From: Linnemannia elongata
Lineage: Eukaryota > Mortierellomycota > Mortierellomycetes > Mortierellales > Mortierellaceae
NCBI GenBank assembly: GCA_036320915.1
Contig: JAXBDG010000008.1
Coordinates: forward strand, 2,418,001-2,482,000
Reading direction: 5' to 3'
DNA: 64,000 nucleotides
Shown here piece after piece: positions 53,641-62,199 of the stretch; position 1 is the first letter of the stretch, and the number at the start of each line of letters is the position of its first letter. The notes below the pieces were generated by a model, which was not told the DNA's origin, did not search any database, and saw only the letters and a list, made by a program, of their open reading frames with translations. The translations under genes and the position numbers were made by a program.

Positions 53641-54537
53641 TTTTTTTTTTTTTTTTTTTCGTACACAATTTTATTTCTCTGAAGAATAGAACAAAGGAGG
53701 CATTTGGAAGTAAAGGGAACTACAGACCAAACTCTTCAGTGAACCATCCGTCAGTCACAGTCCGGTCCGAAACCTGGCTCTGCGCAACAATTGTAGCTGC
53801 TCATCACAGCAATAACGGAAGAAAATAGAACTAGATACGAATGTAGGGGACTCTTCCCATCCTCTCCATCAATGACAACCTCCTCCTTCCCAACAAACTT
53901 TCCAACAGCCGCTCATCAGCTGCGCGTGGTTCCTTGGTCGCTCCAGGGCAGATCCTATCCTCATGTGTGGCTAGCGAAGCGCCACACGGGCAGAAACCAT
54001 CACGCGTGATGTAACCATATCCTTGACTCCAGTCGCACGGGGGCCTGTGTATTTTGATGTTTTGTCCTTGGCAGAGATGCCCTGGGTCTGCTCCCACGCG
54101 ATCGTCGCGGAGCATCGGGGTTTCCAGATCCTCTCTGAGGCCTGCGTCTCCAGATAGCCAACAAATTTGTGGAGGACCGTCTTGGCGATCGACTGTGGGG
54201 TTCTGAAGACCGCGCACCATTCGGTCAACATGCTCTTAGGGGTGATGCCGCGGAGTAAGTCCGATGCGTTCCATTTGGGGTTCTCATCGCGATCGGGAGC
54301 AGGACTACCGCTGTGCACGCCTCGAGCTCCACCGATAGAGGAGAATCCCTGCACATGATCCGCATCTCGGAGGGACCGCCAGTATACGGGTACTGGCCTC
54401 GGGGCTAGACGACCGTTATCCACCGCGCGTCTGTGTTCTCGATTCCTGGCTGCATTGTAGCTGTTTGTCGCCTGTACACCCCACTCGTCGATCTTGCCCA
54501 TAGCCTCCTTCCAGATCGCAGTGATAGTTTCAGCTGC
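53641..54537 (-). pseudogene. 5'-truncated, frameshifted retrocopy of an unknown gene
   Basis: Read on the minus strand, this begins right after a TGCAAGTAGAGG(T) duplication. It codes for about 170 residues (KEAMGKIDEWGVQATNSYN, VPVYWRSLRDADHVQGF, MLTEWCAVFRTPQSIAKTVL), then loses frame by one base near 54030-54040. In the next frame it continues with GYGYITRDGFCPCGASLATH and EDRICPG to a stop at 53831-53833. The 3' UTR carries AATAAA (53675-53670), and ten bases later there is a 19-base poly(A) ending at the second duplication copy. No intron interrupts it. This is the signature of a LINE-mobilised, 5'-truncated cDNA. The CxC-His-Cys cluster may bind zinc. The parent gene is not in the window; I believe similar proteins occur in Mucoromycota genomes but cannot verify it here. 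Confidence 0.75.
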
Positions 54538-54549: not shown

Positions 54550-54908
54550 TAGTAAAGAGGAGATGGTAGGAATGTTCCATGATTTCCATGATTCGTCCAC
54601 GCGGCCAGCCTTTATCACTCTACCACTTTTCTTCATTTTTTTTTTTTTTTTTTTTTTTTTTGGAACGGACGAGGCCTGCCTTTTGGCGTTTTGGATACAG
54701 CCTGTTCCTATGGTTCAGAGCTTATCGTATGAGCAGATTTTCTCTTTCACTCTCCACCCTACTCATTTTTTTGGATTCTTCCTTTTGACCTAAAATCGGC
54801 TGCAGGACAATTGGCGCCAAAATGACGTCACCGAGGTCGCGTCATCGTGAAACCAATCCCCACAATCCGTCACTAATGCGTGGTGTCGCACACGCGTAAA
54901 ATTCTAGT
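54550..54908 (-). other. 3' flank of the FEN1-Fanzor gene, possible guide-RNA region
   Basis: This non-coding stretch follows the Fanzor stop on the minus strand. It has a T24-type tract (54637-54661), a perfect palindrome TTGGCGCCAA (54811-54820) and TGACGTCA (54823-54830). In Fanzor and TnpB systems the guide RNA is usually made from the end of the nuclease gene and the flank after it, so this is where one would look. No guide structure can be proven by eye. Confidence 0.3.
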
Positions 54909-57900
54909 CTAGGCTCGTGTCGATTTCCCACGCCTTCCCTGATCCTGACTGGAGGCGGCCATGGTTCTCTTGCGACGTCCAGGGGCTCGATCGGCGGAGG
55001 TGCTGCTGTTGGCCACACTGCTCGAAGTTGTGCTGGATCCCTCGTCAGAGCTAGCCTTCCAGGGGTATGTACCATCCGCGTTGATAGGCTGGAGGTAATC
55101 CGGCCTCTCATGCCTCACCAGGTGTCCTAGAGCGATCTTGCACATGTTCTCGGCAGCCATGACATCTCTATGATGAAAGATCTGACAGTGGAAGCAGTAG
55201 AAGGTCCGTAAGGTCACTTGTGCGACAAAGTGGGTGCACCTCGGACACTTCTTCGACGTATAGTACTCGTTCAGTCCTACAACCACATATCCTAACGATC
55301 GCGCCTAAAATTGTGAATAAAATCATGTTAGTATTTTTTTTTTTTTTTCATTCAACGACATTCACTTATAGTGCTTTGAATCAAAGTTATCAATAAAACA
55401 GGCCTACCTTCTGAACGAAATACGAAAGAAAAGTCGAGTGTAGCGACGAGAGCCTGGACTTGCTTGAGAATTGCCCGAGACCAACGCCAATTAGGATCGG
55501 ATCTGTGCTCTTGTTATCTTCCACACGCCGACCCAGACTACCGCCAACAATGCCGAGCAGACTCTCCGCGATGGCTTGGTACTCTGCTTGCCGCGCCCGC
55601 CTCATGTCCCAATGATGTCTCTGATACCGATGGTCGTCGCCAGAATAGAACTTTTTCAGTCGTTGCTCAACCTGTTCAAGCTCTCTCACATACTCAACAA
55701 CGCTCGCACCTTGTCCTCGAAGGGGTGGTAGATGGGTCTCGATGTACGCAATGGAGTCGTCCTCCTCGCCTTGTAGTGTAGTCAGTTTCTGATTCTCGAG
55801 CCACCTTCTAAAGCGAAATGTTGGCTGATACACAGCTTTCTGTTTCACCGCCAAGTTATAGAAGGCAGGTTTCGATAGGGTCACGAGCGAATCCGTTACT
55901 GGGGGTTGCGCGGAGGTGAAGGTGGAGGCTGACGCGGGAACTGGATTCAAGGTTGTTGTCCATTGGCTAGCGGGGCTGGTCGATTCCTGATTGGTGGTGA
56001 CGATTCCGTCCATGCTGGAGCCCTCCTCAGCCTTCTCCTTGCCATCCAGGCCATTGGGCAAATGTGCAAATGCGCCAACTACGCATGCCTGGCCCCCGTC
56101 TAAAGTGAGAATCTTCATCCTGTCCACATCTTTGCCAGGCCAAAGCTCTCTGATATCCTGCTCACTCCTAATCACGTTCCTGATTTCCTGAAGGAAACTG
56201 TTGGTCCCAGCAACGGTTGTTGTGATTCTTGAGGGCATATCCTCCTCGGCTAACCTTTTGAAGCGAGCATCCTGCCGTTCTCGTAACTTGAAAGTTAGAA
56301 CTTGTACCAAAAAGCCATCCGTTCGGATCGATCCTTGCGGGATGTAGCCGCCTTGGTGATAGTCCCTTGGCTTGGTCTCTTCAACTAGCTTCAAATGATC
56401 TCGTATCTGGTCCAAGGAGATCAGACTAATGGCCCCGCGATGACCAGCCTTGCGCTTTTGACGGTTTGACAGTCCAACTGGATCAATGTCTGAGATGAAA
56501 TGCTTGATAATAACCCCAGGCTCTCGACCTCCAATCCAGTCCTCGAGATCCTTAATAGATGTGAGAGTGGTAATGTCTTCGTCCAAGAGGGCCAGCTCGA
56601 CCAATCGCTGCTTCAACAAAGGTCGCTTCCAAAAGAACGCAGCCAACTCACGTTCTGAGAAAGTCACAAACGGTTGCTTCGAGGACGTGACGGGGGCGAG
56701 ACGCCAGCTGTTCGGAATGAGTTCGTTGAGGGCAAGGTAGTTTTCGGCGGCCGAGATGTTTTCCTGAATCCGGATATCGATGTGGGCTTCTATTCGTCCC
56801 TTGTCCTTCGAAGCTTTGACCTACAGTAAAAAGTCAAGTATTAGCAATAAACTTTATAGTAAAAACTTCAGTGCATTCTTGTTCGCACCACTTGTATCCT
56901 TACCTGATCGTGCAAAAGGTGGGAGCCGTTATTATACATCTTCTTCAGTTCCACAGAAAGTTGTTCTGCGACGGACCGCACCAGAGTGCTCGCTGAGAAC
57001 AGCATTGTTTCGTTTAGCTCGCTCCGATTTCTACAGATGTCGAAGAGTTGAAGCCCTACCAAGATGTTGATGAAAGTGTTGACGGATTTGCCGATTTTGG
57101 AGTTCTTGTCTGGAAGATTTCTTGAGTACAGGTACGTCAGGAAAGACCGAAGGAACATGGAGTGTTTGTTGTCCTTCCTTTCTGCATCCAAGTCGCCTGA
57201 ATCCTCCTGGATATCGTCGCCGTCGGCGTCGGCGTCATCACACTTGTTGGTCAAGGGCTCAATCCTCCCACACAGATAATCCAAAGTATCTCGCTCGTCC
57301 ACTGTCACCGCATCCCGCCGTGCCTCCAACCGCTCCGACTCCAACATGGTCTTGCCTGCTTTCCTCAGTTCCTGTCGCTTAGACTCCTCCGCGGCCTTCA
57401 TACGGATCTGCAACATCTCCAGAAACGCACCAATGAGGCGTTGAGCCTTTCTCTTGATATCCACTGCTAGCGCTGAGCCCTCGTTGATACAGTTGATCAC
57501 CTCAAGCTGTAGATCAGGCCGATCGATCAAAGCTCGTTCAACGTTGGTTTTCAAAGTACCGACCTCCAGCGATGATATGGGGTGGTGCCAGCCGAGAGAC
57601 CTAATGAGACTCTGCTTGCCCTTCTCTGCGTTCGATTTCGGTCCCTCATCGGATGACGTCTTTTTCTGGGTCTTCTTCGCCTTCGCATCCTTCTTTTTGC
57701 TGTCCTTCTTGGTGCTGCTGGAGGAGGTGTCGTCGGGGGACTCGGGAACCTTCTTGGGCGGTTTCCAAACAAGTTGCTTGGCCTTGGGTGGGGGCTCATG
57801 AGCCAACTTCCCTTGTCGCTCCTTGAAGGAAAATCGCTGACGATGTCGAGGTATCCGTGTTCTTGTTAATGGTGGATGACTATGGTCTTGCGGATTCGAA

Positions 57901-59244
57901 GATGTCGAACCAGAAGGCTCCAAACTAGCAATGGATGGCTGCTGAAGGAAGGATTCAGAGTTCTTGGTCACCGGTGCTGGGGATTCGATAGTCCGATACC
58001 GATTAAAAGATCTCGGAACTCGCAATCGTGCGATAGCATCGTTGGAGGATCTATCAATTTTTTTTAAGAAATACAAACATGATGAGGTACGATTCACACA
58101 TATAGATTGGTCTCGATTGGCGTAACAGTAAATAGTTACCTGGGCTGAGCTCCCCGTATTTGACTCTGTTTGTGTTGATCATATCGCATGCAGAAATCCT
58201 GAAATCGGACCTGTAGTTGCTCGAACATGATCTGAGAACCGGGCCGGGATCCATCAGTTTCAAGCCTGGTTTGTTGGAGATCCACAAAGACTCTGGTCGA
58301 GTTGGCGAAGTCCTGATTGTTGGTGTTTTTTGAGATAACCCGGTTGTCAGATAGATAACCCAACACAATGTCCTTTGGGTCTATTAAGTAACGCAAGATA
58401 TCAACCACGGTCAGAGCTTCATCTGAAAAAGAAACCAATATCAATGGATAAAAAATCCCACTTGATCATTACCTGCACGGTCGATTGACTTGATAATAGA
58501 AAAATTAGTCGCAGGGCCGAGGGAGTGAATGTTCTTGTTATAGTCGTTACGACTCACAGCCGCCAGAGCAGTCAACTGGGAACGAGAGACGCCAAGAGCT
58601 TTCAAAAGATCTGGAACGTTGTACACGAGGATGAGACCTCTGGATATGGGACGCCATAGAGTTCGGATGGAGGTGTACGCCATCATGTCCGAGTCCCTAG
58701 AGATAACAATGTCGTCTGGCTGCGCATCGATCGCAATGGCCAAGTCCGCTTCGGTGTCGGCAAGTTTAACAGTCCAGCCCGCGTTCTGCATGTACTGAGC
58801 AAATCCCGAGCGACTTTCCCGAGACCAGTAAAAAGACGAGGCCAGGCTCGACCGAACATCAACAAAGTGATGTTTGCTAATGCGGAGACCGTTGTCCAGA
58901 CGGGAGTCAAGAGTGTCCAGGGCTGTGGTGGTGCGTTCTAGTGCTCTGTCCCGTACTCTCTCTCGCTCGGCGGCTGTGTAGCTCTTTTCCACTGCCTGAT
59001 AGCCGTCGATGTAGAGTGACATATCCAGGGAAGACCCATACCGACGGACTTCCTCCTCGAGCATGCGGTGTGCGACATCTGGTGGATTGTTGGAGTAACT
59101 GTTGCGAATGACCTGGTAGCATGTTCCGAGGACATCAAGTCTGCGATGTTTGTCTGGAGCGATTTTGGCGATGATCGACTGGTACAATAAAGCAGGGTTG
59201 TAACCCTTGCGTCGTATAAACGGGAACCAAAAAGATATACCCAT
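54909..59244 (-). CDS. FEN1/XPG-type nuclease fused to Fanzor (eukaryotic TnpB) nuclease, 1336 aa
   Basis: Five exons: 58473-59244, 58140-58422, 56904-58050, 55408-56820 and 54909-55304; all GT-AG and in phase. Residues 1-257 are a flap-nuclease module: MGISFWFPFIR start, Asp37, YIDG (Asp80), DTEAD (Glu165/Asp167), SRDSD (Asp184/Asp186), and NDYNKNIHSLGP (Asp234) as the helix-hairpin region; all the FEN1 metal ligands have counterparts. Residues 353-734 form a linker with a basic cluster (KKDSKKKDAKAKK, about 466-478, possible nuclear signal) and a long helix. Residues 735-1336 are Fanzor-like: RuvC-I ILTLDGGQA (Asp975); a RuvC-II strand ILIGVGLGQF lacking the usual Glu; NEYYTSKKCPRC (Glu1218, Cys1225/1228); YCFHC (Cys1242/1245); and HRDVMAAEN (Asp1252, RuvC-III). 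Fanzors are RNA-guided DNA nucleases. The first in-frame ATG of exon 3 is deep inside it, which favours one fused gene. The tail is basic and Ser-rich. Confidence 0.85.
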
Positions 59245-59907
59245 AGCGGCTGTTGCGGGCTCATGGGAGGAAGAAAGGAAAGAAAGAGGAGAGAGAGTTC
59301 TTTATTGTGTACGTGCTCAATTTATATGAGATGTTTACCAGTTGATACTTGCAGGTCGTATCAACTGTATGTTCGATCACGTCACCCAGACGAGACAGTA
59401 TAAAGATCAGCTATGGGAGCGAGTCATCTCGCACAGGGAAATCGGCTACAGACAAAAATAAGCTTAGCTTCTCTTTGGAGACGATACTTTCGCCACAGTT
59501 CCTTCTTTAGTGCAGAGGTAGGACTGAAAAGAGAAAGAGGCTGATTTAGTGGCCAAATAGGCCAAAGCATTCGAGGACAGCAAGGCAGAGTTAATGGCCC
59601 TTCTTGAGAAGATATACCATGCACTCGAGGCTAAAATGAAAAGAAAGTGCTCGTTACAGTACCTCCGAGAAACAGTAGCTTTGCTACACAGCGCCTATCT
59701 TCAAGTCAAAGGCGTAAATAAGAGTGGTGCTGGACGAATAACTACTGTATTGTGTCAAATGATCTCATTGAGCCGACTTTCATTGTATTATGGTGTCAAA
59801 TGAAAGTAAAATCAATCACGTGTCGTCACCGTATATCCATAAATCGTAAATACTGTGCTAACATAATAAATAGATTCTAAAAATTAACGGAAATATCGAA
59901 ATGACAA
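59245..59907. other. intergenic between Fanzor gene and tRNA-Trp
   Basis: Promoter side of the fusion gene (GA-rich leader at 59265-59302 on the + strand). A 69-codon frame (59594-59803) has no recognisable domain and I do not call it. A short repeat, GTGTCAAATGA, occurs twice (near 59754 and 59793) with an ACTTTCAT/ATGAAAGT inverted pair. No clear terminal inverted repeat of the element was found. Confidence 0.4.
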
Positions 59908-59980
59908 GGAGGATTGGCGCAATTGGCAGCGCGTCCGTCTCCAAAGCGGAAGGTCGGGAGTTCAAGTCTCTCATTCTCCA
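59908..59980 (+). tRNA. tRNA-Trp (CCA)
   Basis: Full cloverleaf by eye: acceptor stem GGAGGAT with ATTCTCC, D-arm with GGCGC..GCGC, anticodon stem TCCGT/GCGGA around loop CTCCAAA (anticodon CCA), variable loop AGGTC, T-arm GGGAG/CTCTC with loop TTCAAGT, and discriminator base A. No intron is present. A TTTCTTTT stretch follows at once as a Pol III terminator. Confidence 0.93.
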
Positions 59981-62199
59981 CATTTCTTTTGTCTTTTGGC
60001 TCCCTGTTGGTGTTGTCCGTGTGTGTGTGTGTGTGATTGGGGGGAGCCTGGTTTTTTTTTTTTTTTTCTAGTTGGCAAGCAGAACGGGTTAGCCTTTTTT
60101 TTTTTCTTCTAATAACTCTCTCAATATTCTCTTTCTCTTTTACTGCAGGTTTCATGACGACTGTCCACCTTTTTTTCTGTGTGGGCTTCGACTCTCATTT
60201 TTTTTTTTCGAATTTGCACTCGCCACGTTTTTTGTCTAGATTGTTTGCCAAGAACAGTTAGACAGAAAAATAAACAAAGGTGGGTAAAATATGCACAAGG
60301 GTATCCAATCCATCCTTGGCCCGGAGAGGTAGAGGGAGAAAAAAGGCCGGGACCCCCTTTCCCCCCACCCTCCCCATCTCATCCTTTTGGAGCACCTTTT
60401 GGTTTTCGAGTAACCGTATCGCTCTTCTGTATTCTACCACCCTCGAAAGGTCGACATGGACACAGAAAACGCCAAGCTACCGATATGATGGGAATATCAA
60501 GGCTTGCCCAAATAATCAATTGAATGTGTTCAAAGAGGGTAAGAGGAAGGTAGGACTCTGTCTAGCAAAAAAAAAAGAAAGTGAGATGTACACTGCGTCA
60601 GAAATAACGTCGGGATCGAACACAAGTGCGCGATGTAAACAGCAGAAGGGGAGAATAAAGGAAAAATACAAGGAGGAGTTACAAAAGGGAAGAAGAAACA
60701 GATGATGGTGCTGGAACGAGAGAGGAAAGGGTAAGAAAAAGAATGCCATTTATCACAGGGAGAGGAGGATATATGCTGGCGTAAAGTTGAATAGGTGGGG
60801 CGTAGTTCTGGCTCAGATGATGAGGGAAAAGAGAGGCAGATGTTGACGTAGGTAGGGATTGGTGTTGGCGCCGGGGATATACGGTGATAGCATAGGTGAT
60901 GGCACAGGAGATGGTGTCGAGGAGGGCGAAGGTTGAAACAAAGCAAGAAATAGTCGACGACATCTTTACATGTTGGGAGAACCAACAACAACGGCAACTC
61001 ACTCGCTTGTAGAATATTGCCACTTGGTTACAAAACTGCGAGATGACACAACGCTGAGGGAATTCATCCGTCCCGGCACAGAAATAAAAGGGGAGAATGC
61101 ATAGTCGACTATGCAGGGCAATGGCTGTAGTGAGTTCCTTCGGTAACTCGTACTCATAAAAAAAAAAAAATAGTATACCGTAGCAGTTAGGGTAAACTCC
61201 TTTTGTGCTTACTTTTAGGTTGTATGCTCAGGAGCGTGGCGTAGAACAAAAAAGAACATTGGCAGGATGAGACTAACAGAAAAGGGAATTCGTGGGAGCA
61301 TGAACTCCATGAACCATGGGCAGGCTATTCATGGCAAGGTTTCTTCTTTCCTCGTTAGAATTGAATGCAGGTGCGTAGAACAATAAAGAAATAAAAGAAG
61401 GGCGATGCCAAGCGTCAATTGAAATAAGGTATTGGCGAGATGGACACGGGGCAGAATGGACAAAGGATTCAAGTGTCGATTGTCGCTTTGGTGCTCGTGG
61501 CATAACGAGGCAAGCTCATCCACTCTCACTTTATGTCAGTTCTCGTTGCATGGGCAAAGCAAAGAAACTTTCTCTCCTTACTCCAAATCGACTTTTGTAC
61601 ACGAACATGGGTAGTCCCTCCTTGGCGCGTTCAGACTGGCAGATAAAAAATAAAACAGTCGTCCTCTTTGACACCCCTACACTCGCACTGGCCAGCATCT
61701 GATGCCAAGCCTTATTGATGACTTTATTTGTCGGAGAAAGAGAGTGGAGGAACGACGCTTGATTGAACAAGATCGGGCGCATGGCTGCAAACAGGGCACA
61801 AAGGGGGACAAAGGCAAATAATTTTCTTCTTTTTGGATCTAGCCTTTTCTTGTTTTATCCGATTTTCCGCAGCTGCACTTTCCTTTGAACGTAATGAAGC
61901 TCTTTCATATTTTTCTGTCGTTAAACAAGGCAAGGCAAGGCAAGGTAAGGCAAACTTCCAAAAAAAAAAAAAAAAAAAAAAGATGGGCGTAAAGGGGCCA
62001 TCCTCTTTCCCTCTGAATATTCGCTATCTTTGTCATTTACTCCTTTTCTGCCTTGAGAGGTGTCTGTCCACGAATAAATAGAAAAAAACTCTTCACCAGG
62101 ACAAGATTTTTTGGCGCTTGTCAGGAATGGAGGATACCCATGCACACACACACATGGACTTGGCAGAAATGTGAGAGCACATATAACGCATAGAGCGGC

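Follow-up and report, generated by a model that had tools for sequence, protein, structure and literature searches.

Why should a gene carried by a fungal transposon begin as a flap endonuclease and end as a Fanzor-type nuclease? The question is raised by a locus in a 64,000-nucleotide stretch of DNA from Linnemannia elongata (contig JAXBDG010000008.1, positions 2,418,001 to 2,482,000), the whole of which we call the window (G000:C31:2418001-2482000 in our searches of the 51-Mb genome). On its reverse strand (-), on which the gene and the features of its element described below all lie, a gene of five exons and four introns (54909..59244) joins a nuclease of the FEN1/XPG type (the FEN half) to a RuvC/zinc-ribbon nuclease of Fanzor type (the Fanzor half), and this fusion is the sole recognised protein of a terminal-inverted-repeat transposon of about 5 kb. 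Exon 1 (58473..59244) encodes the FEN/XPG-type nuclease core (residues 1-257) and, after intron 1 (58423..58472, 50 bp), exon 2 (58140..58422) continues the FEN half with its C-terminal part, reaching into codon 352; intron 2 (58051..58139, 89 bp, phase 2) lies at the junction of the halves and is followed by exon 3 (56904..58050), which runs from codon 352 to residue 734 and supplies a basic linker and the start of the Fanzor half. Intron 3 (56821..56903, 83 bp) precedes exon 4 (55408..56820), with the Fanzor REC/WED region and the RuvC-I aspartate D975 (56100-56098); intron 4 (55305..55407, 103 bp) precedes exon 5 (54909..55304), with E1218 (55268-55266), the C4 zinc ribbon, the RuvC-III aspartate D1252 (55166-55164) and the stop codon. 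All four introns are GT-AG, none has a length that is a multiple of three, and the joined exons read without a stop across the joins into 1,336 amino acids. The exon structure, coordinates and strand given in a preliminary description are borne out, as are its 89-bp phase-2 GT-AG intron between exons 2 and 3 and its remark that the Fanzor half lacks an early ATG, the earliest methionine in the exon 3 frame being residue 564.

Are the halves parts of one protein or merely neighbours? Because the earliest exon 3 methionine lies at that residue, a separate start of the whole Fanzor half is unlikely. In each of the four families examined (those of the window, L083, L084 and L085), the junction intron is GT-AG and splits a codon in phase 2, with lengths of 89, 84, 116 and 87 bp, respectively; exactly one frame stays open across the join in the window, L083 and L084, and three do so in L085, where the homologous frame is the phase-2 one. 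Since the place and phase of this splice site are kept while L083, L084 and L085 share 27-66% identity with the window protein over the aligned stretches, we read the locus as one gene rather than two neighbours, and a single gene almost certainly encodes both halves. A gene-model artefact was ruled out by the retention of the junction intron in all four families and by the many public gene models that join the halves. Across the genome, a FEN-half match lies upstream, on the same strand and within 6 kb, for 33 of the 54 TNB zinc-ribbon matches, a recurrence of the two-module order that rules out chance neighbours; four FEN exon matches are without a zinc-ribbon partner. The upstream sequence was read for five (L086-L090) of the 21 FEN-less zinc-ribbon matches. 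The absence of FEN looks like truncation in three of these (marked by a retroelement-like insertion, seen by eye; by an exon-2 tail kept together with intron 2, also by eye; and by a match that starts at residue 1052), and the other two hold little beyond the last exon; a separate FEN-less Fanzor lineage in this genome is not supported by these 5 of 21 loci, but may exist. Divergent zinc-ribbon matches near contig starts (G000 C2:8289, C32:6152, C6:6338 and C3:12111) are possibly subtelomeric remnants; one contig-start match, L089, is little beyond a last-exon fragment and adjoins an F-box/LRR-like open frame (by eye).

Public proteins were searched three times, the queries being the entire protein, its FEN half and a relative's Fanzor region; this retrieved 161 proteins, a non-random sample with many partial gene models, the best ~8,000 candidates having been scored in each search. 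Both profiles matched 63 of them, the FEN profile only 68 and the Fanzor profile only 30; the two-domain order that the preliminary description had proposed to survey in relatives recurs, with FEN N-terminal to Fanzor in 63 of the 63 two-profile proteins. Precomputed annotation gives both domains in the relatives P0004, P0008 and P0117, and the locus is divided between adjacent genes in certain annotations (e.g. P0034/P0093 and P0011/P0013). The named hosts are of genera that we take to be Mortierellomycota (Linnemannia and Benniella were placed there by look-up), with the single exception of Umbelopsis ramanniana, whose annotated model (P0159) is without FEN and has an annotated start that resembles, by eye, the start of exon 3. 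Among 35 two-half proteins, window included, the distances between FEN halves correlate with those between Fanzor halves (Mantel r 0.685; permutation maximum 0.282 in 2,000 permutations). Database names of the relatives include 'XPG-I domain-containing', 'Cas12f1-like TNB domain-containing' and 'putative transposase'; P0116 and P0132 are named 'Elongation of fatty acids protein 2', yet match the FEN and Fanzor profiles, an apparent mis-annotation.

The FEN half has several hallmarks of the FEN/XPG superfamily. The metal ligands listed in the preliminary description, D37 (59136-59134), D80 (59007-59005), E165 (58752-58750), D167 (58746-58744), D184 (58695-58693), D186 (58689-58687) and D234 (58545-58543), are all present in exon 1; the seven are kept in 26 of 26 loci of this genome, which are not independent of one another, and are intact in 50 of the 56 complete public FEN rows. 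The FEN fold expected of residues 1-257 agrees with structure prediction, in which exon 1 adopts a FEN-type fold. The gateway lysine and arginine, which we take to be the counterparts of K93/R100 in human FEN1, are K87 and R94, 7 and 14 residues past the second aspartate and invariant (7/7); a search pattern for them matched 21 of the 26 own loci, with both residues in 21 of 21, and left five loci unmatched. In a sequence search against solved structures, exon 1 found yeast Rad2 (E 0.0035). The FEN half has 13-19% identity to solved FEN-family chains (for chains listed above E 0.001), and its ratio of non-synonymous to synonymous changes (pN/pS) resembles that of the RuvC region. We hold it very probable that the FEN half is catalytically active.

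In the Fanzor half, TNB (PF07282) matches residues 1195-1258 with 48.8 bits versus a cut-off of 26.3, and the RuvC region, searched by sequence against solved structures, found the mimivirus TnpB-like protein L79 (E 2.7e-4). The Fanzor-defining motif D-X(125,275)-[TS][TS]XX-[C4]-X(5,50)-RD (PMC3627910) runs from D975 to D1252, and E1218 lies six residues ahead of the zinc finger, where an alternative glutamate is Fanzor-typical (excerpts of PMC10711439). In the non-gap rows of the alignment, the RuvC triad is D in 34 of 34, E in 28 of 30 (lysine in two; five further rows gapped) and D in 29 of 29. The best structural match of the Fanzor model is SpuFz (probability 1.00, E 3.7e-3), a weak match with TM-scores of 0.10-0.17, beyond which the model is too poor to be read. 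We consider it probable that this half is RNA-guided.

How is the gene carried? The element body spans 54798-59817, as judged against three close copies (99.7, 99.6 and 94.4% for its left part). Its 5' non-coding part occupies 59245..59817 and its right terminal inverted repeat, ending CTGCAGCC, lies at 54798..54822, with an adjoining right 8-bp flank GATTTTAG (54790..54797) that is presumed to be a target duplication whose left partner is lost. Sister copies start with GGGTGCAGGACAATGGACGCCATAAT and finish with TGGCGCCAATTGTCCTGCAGCC, which form an inverted repeat, and their flanking 8-mers match exactly in 8 of the 14 left/right pairs compared, with 9 bp common in one more and five unmatched, a count that covers neither copies lacking an end nor those whose ends are strongly diverged (L026 and L027). 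Inverted repeats and target duplication, the marks of a terminal-inverted-repeat transposon, are thus found together in sister copies, and the window copy keeps the right repeat only. Movement looks recent, because a second family has a pair of copies with 99.96% identity across about 2.5 kb. An octamer resembling TGACGTCA (at least 6/8) stands exactly 12-19 bp ahead of the element in 10 of 19 left flanks, compared with 0 or 1 for each of the five next-best offsets listed; the left-flank consensus TGACGTCAC, with weaker A's ahead, is the reverse complement of GGTGACGTMATTT, the most conserved stretch of the right end. L034 is nested in the right end of L055, 11 nt past the TGACGTAA of the latter; nested fusion elements near a motif of the TGACGTMA type form tandem arrays, as in L034/L055 (G000:C31:23364-25697) and in L029 beside G000:C4:912811 (L054). 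In the right flanks of L002 and L003, frames with an ATG start open, by eye, a few hundred bases past the insertion, a hint that the motif may guide the element to sites upstream of genes. The left 300-400 bp are 80-90% alike between families (L009-L012 versus L031-L036) that have FEN halves with about 39% in common; it seems that families have exchanged their left ends or that these are under common recognition.

Between the stop codon and the right end, the folding of single sequences places a candidate guide (omega/right-end) RNA (54798..54908), in which a small hairpin is followed by a long stem with the right inverted repeat as its 3' arm, an arrangement seen in seven of seven sequences from different families or subfamilies. 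The fold z-scores of these seven range from -1.97 to -5.00. On average the stem arms pair better with their own partners (cognate mean -27.9 versus -21.3 kcal/mol in seven families), and the cognate arm ranks first in 5 of the 7 rows and in as many columns; this arm-pairing test used 9 of 13 aligned sequences. The structured right-end segment is likely to be the guide RNA.

Given that RNA-guided DNA cutting by Fanzors and 5'-flap removal or 5' resection by FEN and EXO1 are established elsewhere, what might the two activities accomplish together? We posit that the structured segment would serve as the guide-RNA scaffold and the right flank as the guide, so that the Fanzor half would cut an element-free version of the site, be it on the homologue, on the sister or at the donor after excision. 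The FEN half would then strip 5' flaps or resect 5' ends at the Fanzor cut, and such 5' processing would disfavour simple end-joining and favour templated repair, by which the element would be copied into the site. The insertion step would probably depend on a transposase supplied in trans; since hAT-type enzymes leave 8-bp duplications, one of this type would suit. Engineered proteins offer a parallel, in that an N-terminal T5exo-ErCas12a gives efficient knockout and knock-in (excerpts of PMC8945719) and an EXO1-based Cas9 editor raises templated repair and lowers end-joining (excerpts of PMC11107001). The preliminary description had likewise proposed that the fusion couples targeted cutting to flap trimming; its fusion, FEN fold and Fanzor-type half have good support, and the coupling is plausible and our leading mechanism. 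It mentioned neither the transposon around the gene nor the candidate guide RNA, the loss of the left end or the DGG at RuvC-I. For this explanation as a whole, with the coupling of the guided cut to FEN processing, we see an even chance.

Several observations weigh against a working, RNA-guided fusion. In the Pfam search suggested by the preliminary description, XPG_I (PF00867; residues 165-234) stays below its cut-off in the window copy, with 14.1 bits versus 24.9, though relatives are annotated with both domains, as noted above; residues 235-254, at the end of the exon 1 that was modelled, are of low confidence, and a ligand is changed in 6 of the 56 complete public rows. The Fanzor half model is poor (pLDDT 51.3). 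DPG at RuvC-I is near-exclusive to Fanzors (excerpts of PMC10711439), but the window has DGG, and the 34 non-gap rows, window included, show DLG in 15, DGG in 7, DAG in 7, DPG in 3 and others in 2. The two halves have only 10 of 32 tree splits in common (35 two-half proteins), and RNAalifold, run on the sequence alignment of the right ends, gives five pairs with zero compensatory double changes. Moreover, in-frame stops occur in the matched stretch of 9 of the 26 FEN loci; some are intronic, but at least two lie within the FEN exon, and several copies are therefore decayed. On account of its DGG, we describe the C-terminal half as Fanzor-type rather than as a fingerprint-typical member: it probably resembles Fanzor1 in its working and looks related to it, but without the typical fingerprint. 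The low-confidence end of the modelled exon, the weak Pfam score and the changed ligands would also suit a FEN half that is a DNA-binding or targeting module in place of an active nuclease, an idea that we find improbable, with its ligands unbroken in the own loci and its pN/pS like that of RuvC. That the FEN half instead processes RNA, trimming the 5' side of a guide RNA within the 3' untranslated region of its own mRNA, is unlikely. Retention of intron 2 would bring a stop soon past the FEN half in three of four families (window, L083 and L085), and with the split annotations already mentioned this would fit two proteins, whether by that route or by a separate start of the Fanzor part; given splice sites and phase common to all four families, an exon 3 without methionine ahead of residue 564 and the joined gene models, we hold this to be very improbable.

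Which enzyme, then, moves the element? Judged by size and eye, the element holds no recognisable transposase, and none could be assigned to those end-sharing elements that were read: other open frames within it are of at most 133 amino acids and mostly overlap the exons, and 18 of 21 left-repeat matches adjoin a FEN half (one of these, L029, without a paired zinc-ribbon match), no transposase-coding element with these ends being recognised among the loci read. The three left-repeat matches without a FEN half are L039, L040 and L041. In L039, a left end, a remnant of the last exon and a right end are left, and they enclose a nested DDE_1 element whose inverted repeats are 89 bp long. L040/L093 retains a left end together with a 119-bp right end that is the same as in L084; between them lie nested elements, of which one is bounded by an exact 150-bp inverted repeat and contains a hAT dimerisation frame. 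L039 and L040 were rejected as partner transposase elements, as their frames belong to nested elements with their own repeats; L039 and L040/L093 are fusion elements that have decayed or lost internal sequence and been invaded by other transposons. Around three further degenerate-repeat loci no recognisable transposase partner was seen by eye. The fusion might thus be the element's own mobilisation enzyme, its RuvC and FEN halves cutting and trimming ends and target without a DDE transposase, a reading also favoured by the 11-nt distance of the insertion from a TGACGTCA-like motif, which sits inverted within the right end as well. Against this, several fungal Fanzor1 elements with MuDR-like inverted repeats are also without a transposase (excerpts of PMC3627910), only the three degenerate-repeat loci were read around, with frames judged by eye, and left ends so alike where FEN halves are so different are expected of one shared trans-acting transposase, which we favour for that reason; we regard mobilisation by the fusion itself as rather unlikely. 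A self-sufficient but RNA-assisted form of it, in which the fusion would recognise the TGACGTCA-type motif and make staggered cuts giving 8-bp duplications, with FEN trimming the ends and no DDE transposase, draws on the occurrence of that motif beside targets and, inverted, in the right end and the candidate guide RNA, and is improbable.

How does the fusion compare with known systems? With Fanzor1 proteins (SpuFz1, GtFz1 and PpFz1) it shares the RuvC/zinc-ribbon, the alternative catalytic glutamate, the inverted-repeat transposon and a structured right-end segment that includes the inverted repeat; unlike them it has an N-terminal FEN-type nuclease of about 350 amino acids, and its RuvC-I is usually DLG, DGG or DAG and not DPG. 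The extra domain of PpFz1 is a different one, the cyclophilin-binding FRI (excerpts of PMC11423790). FEN1, EXO1, XPG (Rad2) and GEN1 share with the fusion the fold, the seven acidic ligands and a gateway lysine and arginine at equal spacing from the DG motif; unlike these host repair genes, it is transposon-borne and fused to a probably RNA-guided nuclease. Like the Mucorales MuDR-like elements ROr-4, PBl-3 and MCi-4, the fusion elements are fungal, have inverted repeats and a Fanzor1-like gene, and hold no recognised transposase, but the former have 9-bp duplications (both points from excerpts of PMC3627910) and the latter 8-bp ones and a TGACGTCA-like motif at a fixed distance; the excerpts on the Mucorales elements hold no wording on XPG, a fusion or a nuclease domain. 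The engineered T5exo-ErCas12a and EXO1-Cas9 likewise unite a 5' nuclease of the FEN superfamily with an RNA-guided nuclease (excerpts of PMC8945719 and PMC11107001), the former in the same N-to-C order (PMC8945719), but those were built by engineers, whereas the fungal pairing evolved and is mobile.

In the excerpts of PMC10711439, PMC10432273 and PMC3627910 we met no FEN/XPG fusion. The open-licence literature yielded no description of a natural FEN/XPG-Fanzor fusion, though an earlier mention is possible in a large 2023 Fanzor survey outside it (Jiang et al., Science Advances), and no joint mention of Fanzor with XPG or with Mortierella; Fanzor and FEN1 occurred together in a single paper, with FEN1 as a prime editing topic and Fanzor in a reference title, and TnpB met flap endonuclease in that paper and in one on phages. 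Within the literature covered, the natural pairing of a FEN-type with a Fanzor-type nuclease thus appears to be new. Cas12 arose from TnpB ancestors of the TnpB/Fanzor line. To alter the repair of cuts, engineers join Cas12a or Cas9 to a relative of FEN1, either T5 exonuclease or EXO1, and evolution appears to have reached their arrangement within the TnpB/Fanzor line and to have kept it across a fungal group. The fusion makes the role of a Fanzor for its transposon testable: a single protein has active sites that can be separated, its copies are nearly identical, and the element's ends are known, as is a candidate for the guide RNA. It also provides a natural two-nuclease scaffold.

The window copy retains an intact right end but has lost the left ~66 bp, including the left inverted repeat, past 59817, where the flank (59818..59828), comprising the target motif TGACGACA, of the kind seen as a consensus in sister copies, plus 3 nt (CGT), directly abuts the internal GATTGATTTTACT. 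A deletion at a 4-bp microhomology (GATT) possibly caused this loss, and the copy is probably still protein-making, though immobile by its own ends. The left inverted repeat is lost in several copies (window, L030 and L014), with the breaks of the window copy and L030 a few bases apart. A tRNA-Trp gene lies at 59908-59981, and a separate repeat, 92% identical, is found near fusion elements at 53641-54064 of the window and at 851-1275 of L014.

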